Origin: Paracoccaceae bacterium | Lineage (GTDB): Bacteria > Pseudomonadota > Alphaproteobacteria > Rhodobacterales > Rhodobacteraceae | Assembly: GCA_030697175.1 (NCBI GenBank) | Contig: JAUYQR010000020.1 | Span: forward strand, 62,001 to 126,000 | Direction of reading: 5' to 3' | DNA length: 64,000 nt | In this document: one piece after another, positions 3,289-22,441 of the stretch | Layout: every line of letters starts with the position of its first letter | Position numbering within the stretch: position 1 is the stretch's first letter | Made by a program: the position numbers and the translations under genes | Notes under the pieces: model-generated | Seen by the model: the letters and a program-made list of their open reading frames with translations, nothing else | The model's database searches: none | What the model was told of the DNA's origin: nothing

Positions 3289-4473
3289 ATGTCCTACCAG
3301 AATCCTGTTTTTATCCCAGGCCCCACGAACATTCCCGAGAGTGTCCGCAAGGCCTGCGATATGCCGACGATCGACCACCGCTCGCCCGCATTTGCCCGGG
3401 TGTTCAAGCCGGCAGTTGCGGGTGTGAAAAAGGTGCTGGGCATGGCCGAGGGCGAAGTGATCATCCTGCCGTCGACCGGCACGGGCGGCTGGGAGGCGGC
3501 GATCACCAACACGCTGTCGCCGGGCGACACGGTGCTTGCGGCCCGGTTCGGGATGTTTTCGCACCGCTGGATCGACATGTGCCAGCGGCACGGGCTGAAC
3601 GTTCATGTCATCGAGACGCCGTGGGGTAAGGGCGCGCCTTTGGGGGACATCGCGGCGGCGCTGAAGGCAGACACGGGCCACCGGATCAAGGCGGTGCTGG
3701 CCACACACAATGAGACCGCAACGGGGGTTAAGTCGGACATCGGCGGCATCCGGGCGGCGATGGGCGATCACTCGGCGCTGCTGTTCGTGGACGGGGTTTC
3801 TTCCATCGGGTCGATGCCGTTCGACATGGCCGGGTGGGGCGTGGATATCGCGGTGGCGGGCAGTCAGAAGGGCTTCATGCTGCCCGCGGGGCTTGCGATC
3901 CTTGGGGTCAGCCCGAAGGCGATTGCGGCCATGGAGACCGCAAAGCTGCCGAGAACATTCTTTGATTTCAGGGACATGCTGAAATCCTACGCCACGGGTG
4001 GCTTTCCCTACACGCCGCCGGTGGGGCTGATCAACGGGTTGGCCCATGCCGTGCAACTGCTGGACGATGAGGGGCTGGAGGCCGTTTACGCCCGCCACGC
4101 CCGCATTGCCGAAGGCGTGCGCCGGGCGATTGCGGCCTGGGGCATGGTGCCCTGCGCGGTGTCGCCGGACCTGTATTCAGACACCGTGACGGCGGTTGTG
4201 GTGCCTGCGGGATGCAACGGCACCGATCTGGTGCAGCTTGCGGCCTCGAAATACGGCGTCGCGTTTGGCGTGGGCCTGGGCGAGGTTGCGGGCAAGGTGT
4301 TCCGCATCGGCCATCTTGGCAGCCTGACGGATGTGATGATGCTGTCGGGTCTGGCGACGGCCGAGATGTGCATGGCCGACCTCGGCTGGCCGATTACCCT
4401 CGGCTCAGGTGTGGCCGCAGCGCAGGAGTATTACCGCAACGGGGCGAAGGAGGCGGCGAAGGCCGCAGCGTAA
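3289..4473 (+). CDS. bhcA: Aspartate--glyoxylate aminotransferase (BhcA)
   Basis: This is a class V PLP-dependent aminotransferase of 394 aa. In the beta-hydroxyaspartate cycle it transfers the amino group of aspartate to glyoxylate, giving glycine and oxaloacetate. The N-terminus (FIPGPTNIPESV) is typical of serine-glyoxylate/alanine-glyoxylate aminotransferases. The PLP-binding lysine is K194 in SQKGFMLP. A GGAG sequence lies just before the ATG. Alone it could be called serine-glyoxylate aminotransferase; the following dehydratase, aldolase and reductase fix the role. First gene of bhcABCD, with bhcB starting 1 bp after its stop. Confidence 0.92.
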   Translation: MSYQNPVFIPGPTNIPESVRKACDMPTIDHRSPAFARVFKPAVAGVKKVLGMAEGEVIILPSTGTGGWEAAITNTLSPGDTVLAARFGMFSHRWIDMCQRHGLNVHVIETPWGKGAPLGDIAAALKADTGHRIKAVLATHNETATGVKSDIGGIRAAMGDHSALLFVDGVSSIGSMPFDMAGWGVDIAVAGSQKGFMLPAGLAILGVSPKAIAAMETAKLPRTFFDFRDMLKSYATGGFPYTPPVGLINGLAHAVQLLDDEGLEAVYARHARIAEGVRRAIAAWGMVPCAVSPDLYSDTVTAVVVPAGCNGTDLVQLAASKYGVAFGVGLGEVAGKVFRIGHLGSLTDVMMLSGLATAEMCMADLGWPITLGSGVAAAQEYYRNGAKEAAKAAA

Positions 4474-4474
4474 G

Positions 4475-5446
4475 ATGAACGGTATGGCACCTTTGGTTAT
4501 TCCAGCTTTCGCCGACGTGATCGCGGCACATGATCGCATCCGGCCCCACATTCATCGCACCCCTGTGTTAACGTCGACTTACTTCAACGAGCTGACCGGG
4601 GCGGAGCTGTTCTTCAAGTGCGAGAACTTCCAGAAGGCGGGCGCGTTCAAGGTGCGCGGCGCGTCGAACGCGGTGTTCGGCTTGCGCGACGACCAACTGG
4701 CAAAAGGCGTGGCGACCCATTCCAGCGGCAACCATGCGCTGAGCCTGTCCTATGCGGCGGGTCGGCGGGGGATTCCCTGCAATGTGGTGATGCCGCGCAC
4801 CGCGCCGCAAGCCAAGAAGGATGCGGTGCGGGGCTATGGCGGGGTGATCGTGGAGTGTGAGCCCTCCACCTCCAGCCGGGAGGAGGCGTTTGCCGAAGTG
4901 CAGGCCCGGACGGGGGCGGATTTCGTGCATCCCTACAACGATCCGCGGGTGATCGCCGGGCAGGCGACCTGTTCGCGCGAGTTGATGGAGCAGGTGCCGG
5001 GGCTGGATGCGATCATCGCGCCCATCGGTGGAGGCGGCATGATTTCAGGCACTTGCCTGACGGTGTCCTCGACCGCGCCGGGGGTCGATGTCTATGCGGC
5101 GGAACCGAAGAACGCGGACGATGCCTTCCGCAGCTTCAAGGCCGGGCACATCATCGCCGACGACGCGCCCGACACGGTGGCGGATGGGTTGAAGGTGCCG
5201 CTGAAGGACCTGACCTGGCACTTTGTCAGCCACTACGTGAAAGACGTTTTCACCGCGACCGAAGACGAGATCATTGGCGCGATGAAGCTGACCTGGAAGC
5301 GGATGAAGATCATCATCGAGGCCAGCTGCGCCGTGCCGCTGGCGACCATTCTGGCCAACCCGGAGGTCTTTCGTGGCCGCCGCGTGGGGGTCATCATCAC
5401 CGGCGGAAACGTCGATCTGGACACTTTGCCTTGGATGAAAGGGTAA
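4475..5446 (+). CDS. bhcB: Beta-hydroxyaspartate dehydratase (BhcB)
   Basis: This fold-type II PLP enzyme (threonine/serine dehydratase family, 323 aa) removes water from beta-hydroxyaspartate to give iminosuccinate. The PLP lysine lies in GAFKVRGA near residue 57, and the glycine-rich phosphate loop is PIGGGGMISG. The ATG at 4475 follows the bhcA stop by 1 bp, with AGGAGG about 20 bp upstream inside bhcA; a second ATG at 4484 is also possible. Without its neighbours it would be annotated threonine dehydratase or threo-3-hydroxyaspartate ammonia-lyase. Confidence 0.9.
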   Translation: MNGMAPLVIPAFADVIAAHDRIRPHIHRTPVLTSTYFNELTGAELFFKCENFQKAGAFKVRGASNAVFGLRDDQLAKGVATHSSGNHALSLSYAAGRRGIPCNVVMPRTAPQAKKDAVRGYGGVIVECEPSTSSREEAFAEVQARTGADFVHPYNDPRVIAGQATCSRELMEQVPGLDAIIAPIGGGGMISGTCLTVSSTAPGVDVYAAEPKNADDAFRSFKAGHIIADDAPDTVADGLKVPLKDLTWHFVSHYVKDVFTATEDEIIGAMKLTWKRMKIIIEASCAVPLATILANPEVFRGRRVGVIITGGNVDLDTLPWMKG

Positions 5447-5450
5447 CGAC

Positions 5451-6614
5451 ATGAACAGCCATTCGAACTTTGCGGGTCTTGAGGTCGGCTATGACATCCC
5501 CGCCCTGCCGGGGATGAACGAGGCAGATATCCAGACGCCGTGCCTGGTGCTGGATCTGGACGCGCTGGAGCGTAACATCAAGAAAATGGGCGATTATGCG
5601 CGCGCCCACGGGATGCGGCACCGGGTGCATGGCAAGATGCACAAGTCGGTGGATGTGGCCAGACTGCAGGAAGAACTGGGTGGTTCGGTGGGTGTGTGTT
5701 GCCAGAAGGTAAGCGAGGCCGAGGTGTTCGCGCGGGGCGGGATCAGGGATGTGCTGGTCAGCAACCAGGTGCGCGATCTGGCCAAGATCGACCGGCTGGC
5801 GCGGTTGCCGAAGCTGGGGGCGCGGACGATCTGCTGCGTGGACATGCTGGACAACGTGGCGGACCTGTCGGCAGCCGCCGTGCGGCATGGCACCATGATC
5901 GAGTGTCTGGTGGAGATCGACTGCGGCGCGGGGCGCTGCGGGGTGAAGACGACGCCGGAGGTTGTGGCGCTGGCGAAGGCGATTGGCGCCGCGCCGGGGC
6001 TGAAGTTCGCGGGCATTCAAGCCTATCAGGGCGCGATGCAGCATATGGACAGCTATGCCGACCGGAAGGCGAAAATCGACCTTGCGGTGGCTCAGGTAAA
6101 GGACGCGGTGGAGGCGCTGAAGGCTGAAGGTATCGCCTGCGACATCGTTGGCGGCGGCGGCACGGGGAGCTACTATTTCGAGAGCAATTCTGGCGTTTAC
6201 AATGAGTTGCAGTGCGGCAGCTATGCGTTCATGGATGCCGACTATGGCCGGATTCTGGACGAGAACGGCAAGCGGATCGACCAGGGGGAGTGGGAAAATG
6301 CGCTGTTTATCCTGACCTCGGTGATGAGCCATGCCAAGGCCGACAAGGCGATTGTCGATGCCGGGTTGAAGGCGCAATCGGTGGATTCCGGGTTGCCGGT
6401 GATCTTTGGGCGGACGGATGTGAAATACGTGAAATGCTCGGACGAACATGGGGTGGTGGACGATCCGCTGGGTGTTCTGAAGGTCAACGACAAGCTGAAA
6501 CTGGTGCCGGGACACTGTGATCCGACATGCAATGTGCATGACTGGTATGTCGGTGTGCGGGGCGGCAAGGTCGAGGTGGTGTGGCCGGTTTCGGCACGTG
6601 GCAAGGCGTATTGA
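5451..6614 (+). CDS. bhcC: Beta-hydroxyaspartate aldolase (BhcC)
   Basis: This fold-type III PLP enzyme of the D-threonine aldolase family (387 aa) condenses glycine and glyoxylate into beta-hydroxyaspartate, the first carbon-carbon bond-forming step of the cycle. The PLP lysine should be K62 in RVHGKMHKS, matching the family's HAKTHK motif. The alanine-racemase-like barrel is followed by a C-terminal domain containing PGHCDPTCN, where the family binds its divalent metal. It starts 4 bp after bhcB with AAAGGG upstream. In other contexts the same family is called 3-hydroxy-D-aspartate aldolase. Confidence 0.92.
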   Translation: MNSHSNFAGLEVGYDIPALPGMNEADIQTPCLVLDLDALERNIKKMGDYARAHGMRHRVHGKMHKSVDVARLQEELGGSVGVCCQKVSEAEVFARGGIRDVLVSNQVRDLAKIDRLARLPKLGARTICCVDMLDNVADLSAAAVRHGTMIECLVEIDCGAGRCGVKTTPEVVALAKAIGAAPGLKFAGIQAYQGAMQHMDSYADRKAKIDLAVAQVKDAVEALKAEGIACDIVGGGGTGSYYFESNSGVYNELQCGSYAFMDADYGRILDENGKRIDQGEWENALFILTSVMSHAKADKAIVDAGLKAQSVDSGLPVIFGRTDVKYVKCSDEHGVVDDPLGVLKVNDKLKLVPGHCDPTCNVHDWYVGVRGGKVEVVWPVSARGKAY

Positions 6615-6617
6615 CGC

Positions 6618-6661
6618 TGTCTGCAAAGCGTCTGGCAAGTGTATGGCAGGCGTCTGGCAAA
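6618..6661 (+). repeat. Four 11-bp direct repeats in the bhcC-bhcD spacer
   Basis: Four back-to-back 11-mers follow the bhcC stop: TGTCTGCAAAG, CGTCTGGCAAG, TGTATGGCAGG and CGTCTGGCAAA (consensus YGTCTGGCAAR). The period is close to one DNA helical turn. A further exact CGTCTGGCAAA stands alone after glcF at 42830-42840. This may be a protein-binding array or the remnant of a tandem duplication; sequence alone does not decide. Confidence 0.5.
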
Positions 6662-6668
6662 CTGACCT

Positions 6669-6710
6669 GCCGGGAGCCTCCGGCGGGGATACTTTTGAAC
6701 AGAAGAAAGC
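6669..6710 (+). repeat. Recurrent intergenic element, copy 1 (bhcC-bhcD)
   Basis: A GC hairpin (GCCGG pairing with CCGGC, 6669-6684) is followed by GGGGATACTTTT and a purine-rich GAACAGAAGAAAG tail that runs into the bhcD leader. Four further copies occur in the window (10586, 15650, 20095 and 40381). The hairpin plus T-run resembles an intrinsic terminator, yet this copy sits inside what should be one operon, where it could trim expression of bhcD. Confidence 0.5.
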
Positions 6711-6719
6711 GGTAGTGGG

Positions 6720-7679
6720 ATGCTGATCATACCCGAAGGGCTGATTGCGGGGCTGGTTTCGCCTGATGATGCCTTTGCGGCGGTGGAGGCGACGTTTGCG
6801 GCGATGGCGCGGGGGGAGGCGTACAACTTTCCGGTGGTGCGCGAGGCGCTGGGCGAGGGGCGGCAGTATGGCTTCAAGTCGGGCCTGGACCGGGCGGGGG
6901 GCAGCCTCGGCGTGAAGGCGGGGGGGTATTTTCCGGGCAATGCGGCACGCGGGATCATCAACCACCAGTCGACGGTGTTCCTGTTCGACCCGGAGAAGGG
7001 GCGGCCGACGGCGATGGTCGGGGGTGGGCTGTTGACCGCGCTGCGCACGGCGGCGGCGGCGGCGATTTCCATCGACCGGCTGGCGCGGAACGATGCGCGG
7101 GTCCTGGGCATGGTTGGCGCGGGGCATCAGGCGGGGTTTCAGTTGCGGGCGGCGGCGCGGGTGCGGCAGTTCGACAAGGTGATCGCGTGGAACCTGCACC
7201 CCGACATGCTGCCGAAACTGGGGGCGATTGCGGCGGAGCTTGGCTTGCCGTTCGAGGCGGTGCCTTTGGAGCGGATGGTGGAAGCGGATGTGATCATCAC
7301 CATCACCTCAAGCCCGGTGGCGAGTTTGATGAGCGCCCATGTCGCGGACGGCACGCATCTGGCCTGCATGGGGACCGATACCGTTGGCAAGCAGGAGGTG
7401 GAGCCGGCGCTGCTCGGTCGCGCCTCGGTCTTTGCCGACGAGATCGCGCAGTCGGTCAGTCTGGGTGAGGCGCAGCACGCGGTGGCGGCGGGGCTGCTGG
7501 ATGCGACCGCGATCACGCCCTTGGGCGAGGTGCTGACCGGGGCGCATCCGGGGCGGATGTCTGACGCGGAAATCACGCTGTTCGATGGCACCGGGGTCGG
7601 GTTGCAGGATCTTGCGGTGGCAGGGGTGGCCGTGAAGCGCGCCGAGGAGCGTGGGCAGGGCATCCGCGTCGAGGTCTAA
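6720..7679 (+). CDS. bhcD: Iminosuccinate reductase (BhcD)
   Basis: This NAD(P)-dependent reductase of the ornithine cyclodeaminase/mu-crystallin family (319 aa) reduces iminosuccinate to aspartate and so regenerates the amino donor for BhcA. The Rossmann motif is GMVGAGHQAGFQ around residue 122. The C-terminal region has the family sequence ITLFDGTGVGLQDLAVA. Family membership alone would suggest ornithine cyclodeaminase or alanine dehydrogenase; being the fourth gene after bhcABC makes the reductase role very likely. It lies 105 bp after bhcC, beyond a direct-repeat array and a terminator-like hairpin. Confidence 0.9.
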   Translation: MLIIPEGLIAGLVSPDDAFAAVEATFAAMARGEAYNFPVVREALGEGRQYGFKSGLDRAGGSLGVKAGGYFPGNAARGIINHQSTVFLFDPEKGRPTAMVGGGLLTALRTAAAAAISIDRLARNDARVLGMVGAGHQAGFQLRAAARVRQFDKVIAWNLHPDMLPKLGAIAAELGLPFEAVPLERMVEADVIITITSSPVASLMSAHVADGTHLACMGTDTVGKQEVEPALLGRASVFADEIAQSVSLGEAQHAVAAGLLDATAITPLGEVLTGAHPGRMSDAEITLFDGTGVGLQDLAVAGVAVKRAEERGQGIRVEV

Positions 7680-10401: not shown

Positions 10402-10839
10402 GGCGAGGGGAACGGGGCTGTCATGGGGCGCAGTGTTGGGGGTTTCAAGGGCGCTGGCAAGGGGTGGGGCGGGCGTGTCCCACGGTGGGACATCTTGCAA
10501 GGTCAGCAAGATCATGGCGTTGCGGGCTGCGGTAAGGTGTTGTTAGCCAATTTCGTGGCGGTGGGGCGGGTGGCAGGGTGCGGGACTGGAGGGTTTCACA
10601 CCCTCCAGACCTCCCGTGGGATATTTGGGCAAAGGGGAAGTCCGGGGGGGGTGTGGCCCCGGGTTTGGGCAGGGGCGCTTGATGGCGGATCAAGGCGGAG
10701 GCGGGGCCGACGCAAAGGCGAGCAGACCGGGGGTGGTTGTGGTGCCGGCTGGCCGGTGCCGATACCGGTCTGCGTGTGACGACAGCCACAGTGCCGCGTG
10801 CCTTTTCGGAGCATGTCAGCGCCACGGAGCGGCGGATTT
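10402..10839 (-). other. Noncoding stretch between permease and channel genes
   Basis: This 438-bp spacer lies between two minus-strand genes. I see no convincing gene: the open frames are GC-driven shadows without recognisable proteins. It contains copy 2 of the recurrent hairpin/GGATATTT element at 10586-10640. It presumably also carries the promoter of the permease pair, but I cannot point to clear -35/-10 boxes. Confidence 0.6.
10586..10640 (+). repeat. Recurrent intergenic element, copy 2
   Basis: A perfect 9-bp hairpin (CTGGAGGGT at 10586-10594 pairing with ACCCTCCAG at 10600-10608) is followed by GTGGGATATTTGGGCAAAG and GGAAG. It lies between two minus-strand genes, so relative to transcription it is reversed compared with copies 1, 4 and 5. 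Its loop, TTCAC, is identical to that of copy 3. Confidence 0.5.
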
Positions 10840-14088: not shown

Positions 14089-14118
14089 ACGGGGGTAGCG
14101 CAAGCTGCCCCCGTTTTG
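14089..14118 (+). terminator. Rho-independent terminator of the csp gene
   Basis: An 11-bp stem (ACGGGGGTAGC at 14089-14099 with GCTGCCCCCGT at 14104-14114, one G-T wobble) has a GCAA tetraloop and is followed by TTTT. It starts 27 bp after the stop codon. Confidence 0.85.
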
Positions 14119-14193
14119 CATTTGGCGGTTGGTGGTCGGGCCCACCGCACCCCCAGCCCCTCCCCACGAGGGCGAGGCGGTTGGCGGGTGGTC

Positions 14194-14989
14194 GGCGGCC
14201 ATTGCCGCGCCCTTGGCGCCGTTGAAGAGGGCGTTGAGGAGAACGGCGGCGACCGAGGCGAAGAGGATGCCGTGTTCGACCAGGGGGTGGATGTCATGGG
14301 GCATCCACTGTTTGAAGTTCTGGGCGATGAGCGGGATCATCCCGAAGCCGAGCGGGACCGCGACGGTGAAGCGGTTGTTGCGGTTGGCGGCGAAGTTGAC
14401 GCCGGCGAGGTTGCGGATGACGGTGGCGGCGACCCTGCCGAACATCACGAGGCCGGCGCCGCCGAGAACCATCGGCGGCACGGATTCAACCTGTGCGCCC
14501 ATCTTTCGCACAAGGCCGAGGACGATCAGGATCAGACCGACCGCAAAGCAGACGAAGCGGCTGTTGATGCCGGTGACCCCGACGCGGCCGACGTTCCGGC
14601 TGAACGAGGTGTAGGGGAAGGTGTTGAAGATGCCGCCGATCAGGGTGCCGAGGCCGTCGGTGCGGAGGCCTGCGGAAAGCATCGGCTGGGTGACGGGCTT
14701 GCCGGTCATGTCGCCGAGGGTGAGAAACATGCCTGTCGATTCGATCATCACGCGGGGCATCACGCGGGGCATCACGCGGGGCATCACGCGGGGCATCACG
14801 CGGGGCATCACGCGGGGCATCACGAGGTCGAAGGTGGGGCATCACGCGGGGCATCACGAGGTCGAAGGTGGGGGTGCCGAACTGGAAGGACGGGATCAGG
14901 CCGAACCACGACGCCCAGGCCACCATGGCGAAAAAGATGGCACCGATGGCGACGCCGCCGCCGATGACGATGCCGAGGAGGAGTGGGTG
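14194..14989 (-). pseudogene. Broken NCS2 purine (urate/xanthine) permease
   Basis: The remnant belongs to nucleobase:cation symporter-2 membrane transporters (normally about 450 aa). The first part reads LLGIVIGGGVAIGAIFFAMVA, then FQFGTPTFDLV; the second, in another frame, reads MIESTGMFLTLGDMTGKPVT to AAVLLNALFNGAKG. The N-terminal ~200 residues are absent (a stop lies at 14990-14992). The helix normally between TPTF and MIESTG is replaced by a 12-bp/22-bp repeat array that shifts the frame. The normal stop is also lost: the frame stays open to 13975, across csp in antisense. Its place beside allA/allE/puuE suggests it once imported urate or xanthine. An assembly error in the repeat could exaggerate the damage. 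Confidence 0.75.
14746..14873. repeat. 12-bp and 22-bp tandem repeat array inside the permease remnant
   Basis: Six copies of CATCACGCGGGG run from 14746 to 14817. Then come a 22-mer (CATCACGAGGTCGAAGGTGG plus GG), a seventh 12-mer at 14840 and a second 22-mer at 14852-14873. On the minus strand the 12-mer encodes repeats of MPRV. The 12-mer keeps the frame but the 22-mer does not, so copy number of the larger unit decides whether the frame is intact. Confidence 0.9.
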
Positions 14990-15066
14990 TCACGGATGTG
15001 TTTCCTTGTCCCTCGGGGGCCTTTATGGTCGCGCCGTCCTTGCGCTGCCCCAAGGTTGCGCGCCGG

Positions 15067-15543
15067 TCAGGGCGCAAGCACCGTCCACGGTTGGGCGTAA
15101 CGGTATTCTTCGAGGTTTGGCGTCGGGCCAATGCGGTCTACCACCGCAAAGAGGCCGGGCGCGGCGAGCGGGGTCAAGACGCCGTGCCATGTGCCGCGAT
15201 GCAGGTTTATCCCTTGCGCACCATTGGTCAGAAACGCGCGGGGGGCTGCCTGCGGACCGGGCGCCACGATGACCAGGAAAGGGTCGGCGGTCATCGGGAG
15301 GAAGGCCTGGCTGCCCTCGGGGTGACGTTCGATGAGGTCGAAGGTGTAGGGCAGCGCGCGGGGGGCGGCGCGGAAGATCGAAATGCCGGCGCGGCCCGGT
15401 TCGGGGCCGAAATCGAGGGTGGCGCGGTCGTGGTGGCGGCGGCAGAGGCCCGCATTGATCAGGCGGTGGTCGCCGGTGGTGTCGAGGACGTCGCCGAAGG
15501 GGGCGAAGGCTTCGGCGGTGAGGGGTTCGGGGTGGAGGTTCAT
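15067..15543 (-). CDS. allA: Ureidoglycolate lyase (AllA)
   Basis: This 158-aa enzyme splits ureidoglycolate into glyoxylate and urea, the last step of allantoin breakdown. It is a full-length AllA: it shows the cupin-like core with FLPMTADPFLVIVAP and the conserved GTWHGVLTPL near residue 115. It is the last gene of the minus-strand set puuE-allE-allA. Its product, glyoxylate, is the substrate of the bhc pathway about 8 kb away. Confidence 0.92.
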   Translation of the reverse strand: MNLHPEPLTAEAFAPFGDVLDTTGDHRLINAGLCRRHHDRATLDFGPEPGRAGISIFRAAPRALPYTFDLIERHPEGSQAFLPMTADPFLVIVAPGPQAAPRAFLTNGAQGINLHRGTWHGVLTPLAAPGLFAVVDRIGPTPNLEEYRYAQPWTVLAP

Positions 15544-15570
15544 GCCGCTGCGCCTTTGGCTGGCGGCGTA

Positions 15571-15670
15571 GCGAGGGGGGGCGCGGCCCTCGCGCTAAGC
15601 TGGCAAGGAGCGAGGGGGGGCGCGGCCCTCGCGCTCCGCTGGCAAGAAGCGAGGGGTTTCACACCCCTCG
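15571..15670. repeat. 39-bp tandem repeat in the allE-allA spacer
   Basis: Two full copies of a 39-bp unit beginning GCGAGGGGGGGCGCGGCCCT start at 15571 and 15610. A partial third copy starts at 15649 and runs into copy 3 of the recurrent element. Each unit contains a CGCGAGGG-type self-complementary stem. No coding function is apparent. Confidence 0.75.
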
Positions 15671-15703
15671 CGCTCCCCGTGGGATATTTTTGCAGAGAGG
15701 AAG
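15650..15703 (+). repeat. Recurrent intergenic element, copy 3
   Basis: An 8-bp stem (CGAGGGGT at 15650-15657 with ACCCCTCG at 15663-15670, loop TTCAC) is followed by GTGGGATATTTTTGCAGAG and AGGAAG at the end. It lies between two minus-strand genes in the opposite orientation to their transcription, like copy 2. Confidence 0.55.
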
Positions 15704-15727: not shown

Positions 15728-16573
15728 TCATCGGGGGGGACCGAAGGCGCCCGGGCCGCGCAGGCGTGCGTGGCGGTTGACGTCCTTGTAGAGGAGATAG
15801 CGGAAGGGCCCTGGGCCGGCGGCGATGCAGGCTTGCGGGCAGTAGGCGCGCAGCCACATGAAATCGCCGGCCTCGACCTCGACCCAGTCCTGGTTGAGTT
15901 TGTAGGCGGCGCGGCCTTCAAGGACGAAAAGGCCGTGTTCCATGACATGGGTTTCTTCGAACGGGATGCGGGCGCCGGGTTGCAGGGTGACGATGTTGAC
16001 GTGGGCGTCGTGGCGCAGATCCGTCGGGTCGGCGAAACGGGTGGTGGCCCAGGCGCCGCCCGTGTCGGGCATGGCGATGGGGGGGAGGTCGCGTTCGTTG
16101 ATGACGATGCGGTCGGGGAGCGGCACGCCGGGGGCGGGTTCGTAAAGCTTGCGCAGCCAGTGGAAGCGGGCGGGGGTGGCACCTTCGGCGTGGAGCGCCC
16201 ATGGCGTGCCCGCGGGGATGTAGGCGTAGGCGCCTGCGTCCATTTCATAGCCATCGCCGCCGATCGTCAGGGTGGCGAGGCCGTCGGTGAAGAAGAGCCA
16301 GTGTTCGGCGCCGGGTTCCGCGTCGGGTGTGTCGGAGCCGCCGCCGGGGGCGACTTCCATCACATATTGGCTGAAGGTTTCGGAAAAACCGGTGAGGGGG
16401 CGGGCGATGAGCCAGAGTTTGGTCTTGGTCCAGCCCGGAAGGTAGCTGGTGACGATGTCGGAAAAGCAGCCTTTGGGGATGAAGGCGTAGGCGGTGGTGA
16501 AGACGGCGCGGGCGGTCATCAGTTGCGTCTGGGGCGGCAGGCCGCCTGTCGGGTAATGGTAGGCGGAGGTCAT
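15728..16573 (-). CDS. allE: (S)-ureidoglycine aminohydrolase (AllE)
   Basis: This two-cupin enzyme (281 aa) releases ammonia from ureidoglycine to give ureidoglycolate. The N-terminal cupin has AGTPWALHAEG. The C-terminal cupin carries the metal-binding set FEETHVMEHGLFVLEG, with His and Glu ligands, and GDFMWLRAYCPQ. It overlaps the stop of the puuE fusion (ATGA) and precedes allA, so the three form one operon. Confidence 0.9.
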   Translation of the reverse strand: MTSAYHYPTGGLPPQTQLMTARAVFTTAYAFIPKGCFSDIVTSYLPGWTKTKLWLIARPLTGFSETFSQYVMEVAPGGGSDTPDAEPGAEHWLFFTDGLATLTIGGDGYEMDAGAYAYIPAGTPWALHAEGATPARFHWLRKLYEPAPGVPLPDRIVINERDLPPIAMPDTGGAWATTRFADPTDLRHDAHVNIVTLQPGARIPFEETHVMEHGLFVLEGRAAYKLNQDWVEVEAGDFMWLRAYCPQACIAAGPGPFRYLLYKDVNRHARLRGPGAFGPPR

Positions 16574-17985
16574 GGCAGTTGATCCTTCAGGCGCAGGGTG
16601 GCGATGCGTTCCACTTGAGCGCAGGCGGTGGTGAATTCGGTGGCGGTGTCGTTGGCGAGGCGGGTCTGGAAGGCCGCGAGGATCGAGGCCCTGGTGTTGT
16701 CGCGCACGGCGATGATGAAGGGAAAGCCGTGTTTGGCGGTGTAGGCCGCGTTGAGGCGCTGAAACTCGGCGCGCTCGGCATCGGTCAGGGCGTCGAGGGC
16801 GGCGCTGGCCTGTTCGGCGGTGCTTTCCGGGGTGAGGCGCCTGGCGGTGGCGAGTTTGCCGGCGAGGTCGGGGTGGGCCTTGAGGACGGCGAGGCGTTCG
16901 TCGGGCGAGGCGCTGCGGAAGACGCGGGCGAGGGCGTTTGCGAGGCCCGTGGCGCTGTCGTGCGCGGGGCCAAGTTCGAGGGCGTGGCCACGGGTGGCGA
17001 CCCAGGGGGAGTGTTCGTAGATGCCGCCGAAGCGTTCGGTGAAACGATCAAGGCTCATCGCGCTGGGGCGTTCGATGCGGCGGTGGGGATGGGTGGCGGA
17101 CCAGTGGGCGGCGATGTCGCGGCGGGCGGCGAACCAGGCGCCGCCTTTGGCCTGCACATGGTCGAGGAAGCGGATGAGGCCAGCGATCTTGCCGGGGCGG
17201 CCGATCAGGCGACAGTGGAGGCCGATGGAGAACATCTTGGGGCGGCCGGCGCTGCCTTCGGCATGGAGCGTGTCGTAGGTGTCGCGCAGGTATTGGAAGA
17301 ACTGTTCGCCGGTGATGTAGCCCGGTGCTGTGGCGAAGCGCATGTCGTTGGCCTCGAGGGTGTAGGGCAGGATCAACTGGTCGCGGTCGCCGATCTCCAT
17401 CCACCAGGGCAGATCGTCGTCGTAGGTGTCGGAGATCCAGGTGAACTGGCCCGTCTCGGCGGTGAGGCGGACGGTGTTGAGCGAGGAGCGGCCGGTATAC
17501 CAGCCGCGCGGGGCTTCGCCGGTGAGCTCGGTGTGCAGGCGGATCGACTCGGCGATCTGGGCGCGTTCCAACTCTTCGGGCATGTCGCGGTGGTCGATCC
17601 ACTTCAGGCCGTGGCTGGCGACCTCCCACCCGGCGTCCTGCATGGCGGCAAGCTGTTCGGGGTTGCGGGCGAGGGCGGAGGTGACGCCGTAGACGGTGAC
17701 CGGAAGCTGGCGTTCGGTGAACAGGCGGTGCAGCCGCCAGAAGCCGGCGCGGGCGCCGTAGTCGTAGAGCGATTCCATGTTCCAGTGGCGCTGGCCGGGC
17801 CAGGGTTGCGCGCCGGCGATGTCGGAGAGGAACGCCTCGGACTGGCCGTCGCCGTGCAGGATGTTGTTCTCGCCACCCTCTTCGTAATTCAGCACGAGGC
17901 TGATCGCGACCTTGGCGCCGCCGGGCCACTGGGCATCGGGCGGGTTGGGGCCGTAGCCGCGAAAATCACGGGGGTAGCGGTTCAT
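16570..17985 (-). CDS. puuE: Allantoinase PuuE fused to OHCU decarboxylase
   Basis: This is a two-domain enzyme of 471 aa. Residues 1-310 are a cofactor-independent allantoinase of the polysaccharide-deacetylase fold (NYEEGGE, DRDQLILPYTLEANDMRF), which opens allantoin to allantoate. Residues about 315-471 are 2-oxo-4-hydroxy-4-carboxy-5-ureidoimidazoline decarboxylase, with the active-site segments HPDLAGKLA and LTPESTAEQ and the C-terminal HGFPFIIAVRDNTR. One chain thus covers two consecutive steps after HIU hydrolase. It is the first gene of the operon, divergent from uraH across a 151-bp spacer that should hold both promoters. Confidence 0.93.
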   Translation of the reverse strand: MNRYPRDFRGYGPNPPDAQWPGGAKVAISLVLNYEEGGENNILHGDGQSEAFLSDIAGAQPWPGQRHWNMESLYDYGARAGFWRLHRLFTERQLPVTVYGVTSALARNPEQLAAMQDAGWEVASHGLKWIDHRDMPEELERAQIAESIRLHTELTGEAPRGWYTGRSSLNTVRLTAETGQFTWISDTYDDDLPWWMEIGDRDQLILPYTLEANDMRFATAPGYITGEQFFQYLRDTYDTLHAEGSAGRPKMFSIGLHCRLIGRPGKIAGLIRFLDHVQAKGGAWFAARRDIAAHWSATHPHRRIERPSAMSLDRFTERFGGIYEHSPWVATRGHALELGPAHDSATGLANALARVFRSASPDERLAVLKAHPDLAGKLATARRLTPESTAEQASAALDALTDAERAEFQRLNAAYTAKHGFPFIIAVRDNTRASILAAFQTRLANDTATEFTTACAQVERIATLRLKDQLP

Positions 17986-18136: not shown

Positions 18137-18490
18137 ATGGGACGTTTGACGACGCATGTGCTGGATACCGCGCGGGGCAAGCCTGCGGCAGGGGTGAAGA
18201 TCACCTTGTATCGGATCAGCGGGCAGAGCCACCGGAAGATCGCCGAGACGGTAACGAACGGCGACGGGCGGACGGATGCGCCGATGCTGGAGGGGGCGGC
18301 GCTGACCGCTGGCCGCTATGAGCTGGTGTTCGCGGCGGGGGCTTACTTGCGCGACACGGGGCAGGCGGCGGGCGAGGTGCTGTTTCTGGACGAGATCCCG
18401 ATCCGGTTCGGGGTGGCGGATGCGGCGCAGCATTATCATGTGCCGCTGCTGATTTCGGGCCATGCCTATTCGACCTACCGGGGGTCGTGA
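18137..18490 (+). CDS. uraH: 5-hydroxyisourate hydrolase (HIUH, transthyretin-like)
   Basis: This 117-aa enzyme hydrolyses 5-hydroxyisourate to OHCU, directly after urate oxidation. It starts with the family motif [12 protein letters not shown] and ends with the diagnostic YRGS tetrapeptide, which separates HIUH from transthyretin. It is divergent from the puuE operon and full length, with GGAGGCG before the ATG. Confidence 0.95.
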
Positions 18491-21208: not shown

Positions 21209-22441
21209 ATGTATGACTGGGTTGTTCTGTGGGAATGGATCGAGATTGCGGCGCGCTGGACGCATGTGATCACGGCGATCGCGTGGATCGGATCTTCGTT
21301 CTATTTCATCGCGTTGGACCTTGGGCTGCGCAAGACGCCGTCGCTGCCGCCGCTTGCCTATGGCGAGGAATGGCAGGTGCATGGCGGGGGCTTTTACCAC
21401 ATCAACAAATACCTCGTGGCGCCGGAGATGATGCCGGAGCACCTGACGTGGTTCAAATGGGAGAGCTATGCGACCTGGCTTTCGGGGTTCGCGATGCTGG
21501 TGCTGGTTTACTATCTGGGTGCGGAGATGTTCCTGATCGACCCTTCGGTGATGGAACTGGCGGTCTGGCAGGCGGTGGCGATTTCACTGGCGTCGCTGGC
21601 CTTTGGCTGGGTGGCCTATACGACGCTGTGCAAGGTGTTCGTGAACGCGAACCAGACGGTGCTGATGGTGGCGCTGTTTGGGGTGCTGGTGGGGATGGCG
21701 TGGTTTTACACGCAGGTCTTTTCAGGGCGGGCGGCGCTTTTGCATCTGGGGGCGTTCACCGCGACGATCATGAGCGCAAACGTGTTCATGGTGATCATGC
21801 CGAACCAGCGGATCGTGGTGGCGGATCTGAAGGCGGGGCGGGTGCCTGACGCGAAGTACGGCAAGATCGCCAAGCAAAGAAGCACGCATAACAATTACCT
21901 GACGCTGCCGGTCGTGTTCCTGATGCTGTCGAACCACTATCCGCTTGTGTTCGCGACGGAATACAACTGGATCATTGCAAGCCTCGTGTTCCTGATGGGG
22001 GTCACGATCCGGCATTGGTTCAACACCAAGCACGCGCGCAAGGGCAATCCGCACTGGACCTGGGGGGTGACCGTGATCCTGTTCCTGATCATCGCGTGGC
22101 TGTCGACCGCGCCGATGCGGGTGGCGGCGGGGGAGGCCAGCTTGCGGGGCGAGGCGTTGCGGTTGGCGCGTGCTGAGGGGTTTGGCGAGGTGGTCGGCAT
22201 CGTGCAGGGGCGCTGTTCGATGTGCCATGCGGCCGAGCCGGGCTATGAGGGGGTCTACTGGCCGCCGAAGGGGGTGGTGCTGGAGACCGAGGCACAGATC
22301 GCGCATGAGGCGCGGCGGATCTATCTGCAGGCGGGGGTGACCCATGCGATGCCCCCGGCGAACCTGAGCTACATGGAGCCGGAGGAGCGGGCGGCGATCG
22401 TGCGCTGGTTCAGGGGTGTGGGGGTGGACGATCCGGTGTGA
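21209..22441 (+). CDS. puuD: Membrane-bound urate hydroxylase with cytochrome c domain (PuuD)
   Basis: This 410-aa inner-membrane enzyme oxidises urate to 5-hydroxyisourate. About eight membrane helices (residues 10-305) form the PuuD core, with histidines in the first helices (ARWTHVITAIAWIG). The C-terminal domain is a c-type cytochrome with heme site C336-x-x-C339-H340 (CSMCH) and a likely axial Met381 in HAMPP, passing electrons to the respiratory chain instead of making peroxide. It supplies the substrate for UraH. It stands alone and is divergent from the LysR gene. Confidence 0.93.
   Translation: MYDWVVLWEWIEIAARWTHVITAIAWIGSSFYFIALDLGLRKTPSLPPLAYGEEWQVHGGGFYHINKYLVAPEMMPEHLTWFKWESYATWLSGFAMLVLVYYLGAEMFLIDPSVMELAVWQAVAISLASLAFGWVAYTTLCKVFVNANQTVLMVALFGVLVGMAWFYTQVFSGRAALLHLGAFTATIMSANVFMVIMPNQRIVVADLKAGRVPDAKYGKIAKQRSTHNNYLTLPVVFLMLSNHYPLVFATEYNWIIASLVFLMGVTIRHWFNTKHARKGNPHWTWGVTVILFLIIAWLSTAPMRVAAGEASLRGEALRLARAEGFGEVVGIVQGRCSMCHAAEPGYEGVYWPPKGVVLETEAQIAHEARRIYLQAGVTHAMPPANLSYMEPEERAAIVRWFRGVGVDDPV

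Follow-up and report, generated by a model that had tools for sequence, protein, structure and literature searches.

A probable NCS2 permease pseudogene with a tandem-repeat array beside the ureide genes of a Paracoccaceae bacterium

Is a permease gene that is interrupted by a perfect tandem-repeat array, next to the genes of ureide degradation, a switchable transporter, a fault of the assembly, or a gene in decay? The locus in question is a broken NCS2 xanthine/uracil-type permease on the minus strand, 14194–14989 of the 64-kb stretch of DNA that was analysed (the window). It is very probably the pseudogene of a purine (xanthine/urate-type) NCS2 permease, a member of the adjoining ureide operon, with a slippage array inside it; the putative substrate, xanthine or urate, is read from the neighbouring genes and the family names only. 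Pseudogene and array together look like ordinary gene decay, with no switch. Event order and array reality are taken from one assembly, the genus being represented by one genome.

The C-terminal remnant (14194–14748, minus strand) reads from MIESTG onwards, with 177 codons matched at 14218–14748. By sequence its ORF is homologous to NCS2 permeases (Pfam PF00860, E 7.1e-35), but the match covers only positions 219–382 of the 389 in the profile, short of the full length of a functional permease. NCBIfam pbuX and ncs2 matched likewise as fragments, under their full-length cut-offs, because the remnant is a fragment. The 177 codons are homologous to the NCS2/NAT nucleobase:cation symporters (TIGR00801, and the pbuX-type TIGR03173), whose relatives of solved structure include uracil permease, the uric acid-xanthine permease and SLC23A1. 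Upstream of the array is a short second remnant (14874–14985, minus strand; LLLGIVIGG...FGLIPSFQFGT), which matches residues 244–291 of an intact relative and lies in a frame other than that of the C-terminal part. The translation of this piece is LLLGIVIGG...FGLIPSFQFGTPTFDLVM, and the reading frame before the array (FGLIPSFQFGTPTFDLVMPRVM) differs from the frame after it (PRVM-MIESTGMF).

When residues 1–308 of an intact relative were searched against the whole genome, matches were limited to residues 244–291, at the remnant, and the permease N-terminus (~240 of ~490 codons) was found nowhere in the genome. The deletion junction was placed approximately at 14981–14986 by comparison of the leader, start and VLLG regions with those of six relatives. 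The permease leader is retained (14986–15066, minus strand) from the allA stop to the former start, and it resembles the allA-permease spacers of relatives. The helix directly before the conserved MIESTG motif is missing, the array being in its place with IES kept, so the remnant lacks the conserved helix that ends in IES. The permease stop is lost as well, and the ORF extends to 13975, antisense to a cold-shock gene. The first-pass annotation had described the loss of the N-terminal half, a central helix and the stop, and this description stands, with ~240 of ~490 codons as the half.

Intact copies were found in relatives. The C-terminal fragment was matched in 20 of the 61 genomes compared, window genome included, and the best four other genomes (G022, G028, G034 and G023) showed 66–84% identity and long open frames of 511–751 aa, with the 84% identity belonging to G022. 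The helix before IES was present in 84/84 permease loci examined (L003–L006 and L024–L103); the scan of genome contigs kept the best 80 of 572 loci and used six peptide patterns, one of them at the array edge, through which it was possibly biased towards intact copies. Among the 34 loci tested for synteny, many Rhodobacteraceae show puuE, the bicupin gene, allA and then the permease; in other loci, mostly outside Rhodobacteraceae, the permease was the only common feature in the stretch compared. Since relatives with the same gene order carry an intact permease after allA, the permease would be part of the ureide operon and would have been intact in the common ancestor of the syntenic relatives. 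The remnant sits beside the ureide genes in the same place as these intact copies, but it differs from them in its deletion, its frame change, the lost stop, the absent helix before MIESTG and changes at constrained residues.

The residue changes point to relaxed selection. In the alignment of the 177 codons, 130 columns were invariant in 12 relatives, hand-picked among the loci because of their synteny or closeness, and the window deviated at 16 of them; when each of the 12 was tested alike, 0–2 of 114–116 invariant columns were altered. Base changes restricted to the window at otherwise invariant permease sites numbered 6/121, 11/151 and 1/27 at codon positions 1, 2 and 3 (17/272 for positions 1 and 2 pooled), a distribution in which position 2 lacks its customary protection. 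The neighbouring genes served as controls, and here the earlier claim that the catabolic genes look intact was borne out by family matches and by conservation. The window altered 1/73 invariant residues in allA (other rows 0–3 of 72–75), 3/147 in the bicupin gene (0–13 of 144–157) and 14/278 in puuE (0–10 of 264–274). Among 11 rows, conservation of puuE was lowest in the window (5.0% changed vs 0–3.6% elsewhere), and selection could be relaxed on puuE and the pathway too; both of its domains score over NCBIfam cut-offs despite the raised change count. Overall, the remnant appears to evolve like a pseudogene, and the neighbouring catabolic genes look kept.

The array itself occupies 128 bp (14746–14873) and, when read on the minus strand, runs as 22-12-22-12x6 with every copy perfect. 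The first-pass annotation had likewise given seven 12-mers and two 22-mers in place of the helix. The seven exact 12-mers are CATCACGCGGGG (positions 14746, 14758, 14770, 14782, 14794, 14806 and 14840), in minus-strand reading CCCCGCGTGATG in seven identical copies. The 22-mer, in minus-strand reading CCCCACCTTCGACCTCGTGATG, is present in two exact copies (14818 and 14852) with zero mismatches. The array had the top TRF score (170) of the 48 TRF rows in the window, and at 67 bases the window's longest exact run of period 12 was far beyond chance expectation, as 20 first-order Markov sequences of 64 kb each gave 7–13 bases. A 283-aa antisense ORF (14116–14967, plus strand), in which the array is translated as (HHAG)n, was attributed to the GC richness of the DNA.

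Since the 22-mer equals the permease's own coding sequence (PTFDLVM; intact relatives have the same peptide here, with small changes), the array was most likely born of local slippage or tandem duplication, and probably not long ago. The intact gene offers suitable material: in 48/84 loci GTGATG occurs in at least two exact copies within the 60 bases before IES, and at a period of 12 the intact helices are modestly self-similar (0.60 vs 0.45–0.52 for the remaining multiples of 3 that were tested). In the window, the sequence past the array resumes at the last VM-IES. In the proposed course of events, selection on the permease would have ceased first, after which slippage, or unequal tandem duplication or recombination, between the GTGATG motifs of the helix would have removed the helix and seeded tandem copies. 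Multiplication of the 22-bp stretch that encodes PTFDLVM, and of its 12-bp derivative, would have followed; by our reconstruction, loss of 10 bp and one substitution may have turned the 22-mer into the 12-mer. The locus resembles a general class, pseudogenes with slipped-strand tandem arrays, in that an array from the host gene's own sequence lies within a decaying gene; it has no feature to set it apart, the mixed 12/22 unit being a detail. We rejected an origin of the array from mobile or viral DNA: the pattern had 0 matches among the viral contigs searched, the whole-genome search for the two-copy array pattern found no second site in the own genome, and the 22-mer is the gene's own.

Had the array existed throughout the decay of the remnant, about 8 differences would be expected among the copies at the per-base rate of the remnant (17/272), and 0 were observed (P about 0.0003, a rough value that assumes no homogenisation among copies). 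This makes the array, or at least the form it now has, probably younger than the decay. This bears on the earlier wording that the permease was broken by the array. The permease is indeed broken; that the array was the cause is unsupported, as the perfect copies suggest an array younger than the decay, and the gene besides carries a large deletion, has lost its stop and differs at 16 invariant residues.

Three other readings of the locus were weighed against gene decay, as well as a variant of one of them. Assemblies are known to be error-prone at tandem arrays and the present one is in 24 contigs, so the true permease might be intact, its repeats having been collapsed or joined by the assembler. 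We regard this as improbable: the deletion, the lost stop and the many scattered substitutions at conserved sites are all outside the array, the 177-codon open frame past the array and the pattern of substitutions are unlike an assembly fault, many common reads exceed the 128 bp of the array, and only one PF00860 locus is present in a genome whose completeness is estimated at 99.76%.

Still less probable is that the C-terminal part is expressed as a half-size membrane protein in a new role. A 282-aa open frame does start from a GTG in the array and the 177 permease codons contain no stop, but stop-free frames are common in the GC-rich DNA of the window, residues strongly constrained in relatives are freely altered, and the tail enters sequence antisense to the cold-shock gene. 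Every 12-mer of the array contains ATG/GTG start codons, and a live minisatellite that still changes, in which internal starts drive translation of a C-terminal membrane fragment so that this new small membrane protein is tuned by the copy number, is very improbable.

Equally slight are the chances of a phase-variable contingency locus, where the copy number of the array would shift the frame and turn the permease on or off. Phase-variable contingency genes carry coding tandem repeats, and the likeness is an in-gene repeat whose 22-bp unit is indivisible by 3; the frames that flank the array also differ. The difference is that no copy state here yields a full protein. The reading fails because no copy number supplies the missing half, the ~240 N-terminal codons being absent from the genome and at least one state with an intact ORF thus being out of reach; moreover, the helix before MIESTG is absent whatever the copy state, a reading begun in the region of the former start runs in a third frame, the stop is missing and 16 invariant residues are altered. 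The first-pass annotation had itself held that the missing N-terminus argues against a working phase switch, and the N-terminal query, with its matches limited to residues 244–291 genome-wide, agrees.

Gene decay being the preferred reading, the pathway that the permease would have served was considered. On the minus strand upstream of the remnant, intact genes were identified for ureidoglycolate lyase (allA, 15067–15543; PF04115 and conservation), (S)-ureidoglycine aminohydrolase (the bicupin, 15728–16573; NCBIfam NF008373/TIGR03214 over cut-off) and a puuE-uraD fusion of allantoinase and OHCU decarboxylase (16570–17985; TIGR03212 and TIGR03164 over cut-off). For allA some models score below cut-off; PRK13395 and PF04115 pass. 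On the plus strand follow uraH, hydroxyisourate hydrolase (18137–18490; TIGR02962), and a puuD-type urate oxidase (21209–22441; PF06181, E 3e-132).

It had been proposed that import must use another carrier or that urate comes from inside, and that another NCS2 gene be searched for. No second NCS2 (PF00860) gene was found in the genome, estimated as 99.76% complete, and the whole-genome search found no NCS1 (PF02133) gene. As a special puzzle, however, the missing importer is weak, because no NCS2 match exists in 16 of the 35 family genomes that have PuuD, and the window genome possesses a Bmp ABC importer beside its xanthine dehydrogenase genes. PF06181 was found in 35/37 family genomes (G000–G036, some of them incomplete); 18 of these 35 had NCS2 matches, 16 were without any, and 1 was the window genome with its remnant. 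Contig C20 of the own genome (L135:3257–13062) carries xdhA, xdhB and an XdhC-type gene, then an ABC ATPase, two permeases and a Bmp substrate-binding protein. The latter was matched at E<=1e-30 in 35/37 family genomes, including 15/16 of those without NCS2; the count includes G027, with a short high-identity stretch only, and G030, where the gene is split by a stop. The Bmp protein scored well under the cut-off of the NCBIfam B6-transporter model, and the substrate of the importer is a putative one, suggested by neighbours and family names only. Import of purines or nucleosides by the xdh-linked Bmp ABC system, or urate made internally, would be the plain explanation. The pathway may be retained because purines could enter as nucleosides or bases via other carriers, or arise inside, to be oxidised by xanthine dehydrogenase. 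PuuD of G009 (contig C3) and the Bmp protein of G030 (contig C95) each contain one in-frame TGA, possibly marking pseudogenes or sequencing errors.

The locus carries little weight beyond annotation. The remnant suggests that the ureide pathway of the family is independent of its linked NCS2 permease, and it offers a neat small case of a minisatellite with an origin traceable to the decaying gene's own coding sequence.

Further features were observed in the surrounding DNA. Complete beta-hydroxyaspartate cycle genes, bhcA-bhcB-bhcC-bhcD (3289–7679, plus strand), all score over NCBIfam cut-offs, and this glyoxylate-assimilation route lies ~7 kb from the ureide genes, which release glyoxylate. 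Between allA and the bicupin gene there is a 39-bp direct repeat of 2.2–2.7 copies (15570–15676). The 13-mer CCGTGGGATATTT occurs twice in the window (10614–10626 and 15677–15689; expected 0.05), outside the named genes, and perhaps belongs to a dispersed intergenic element.
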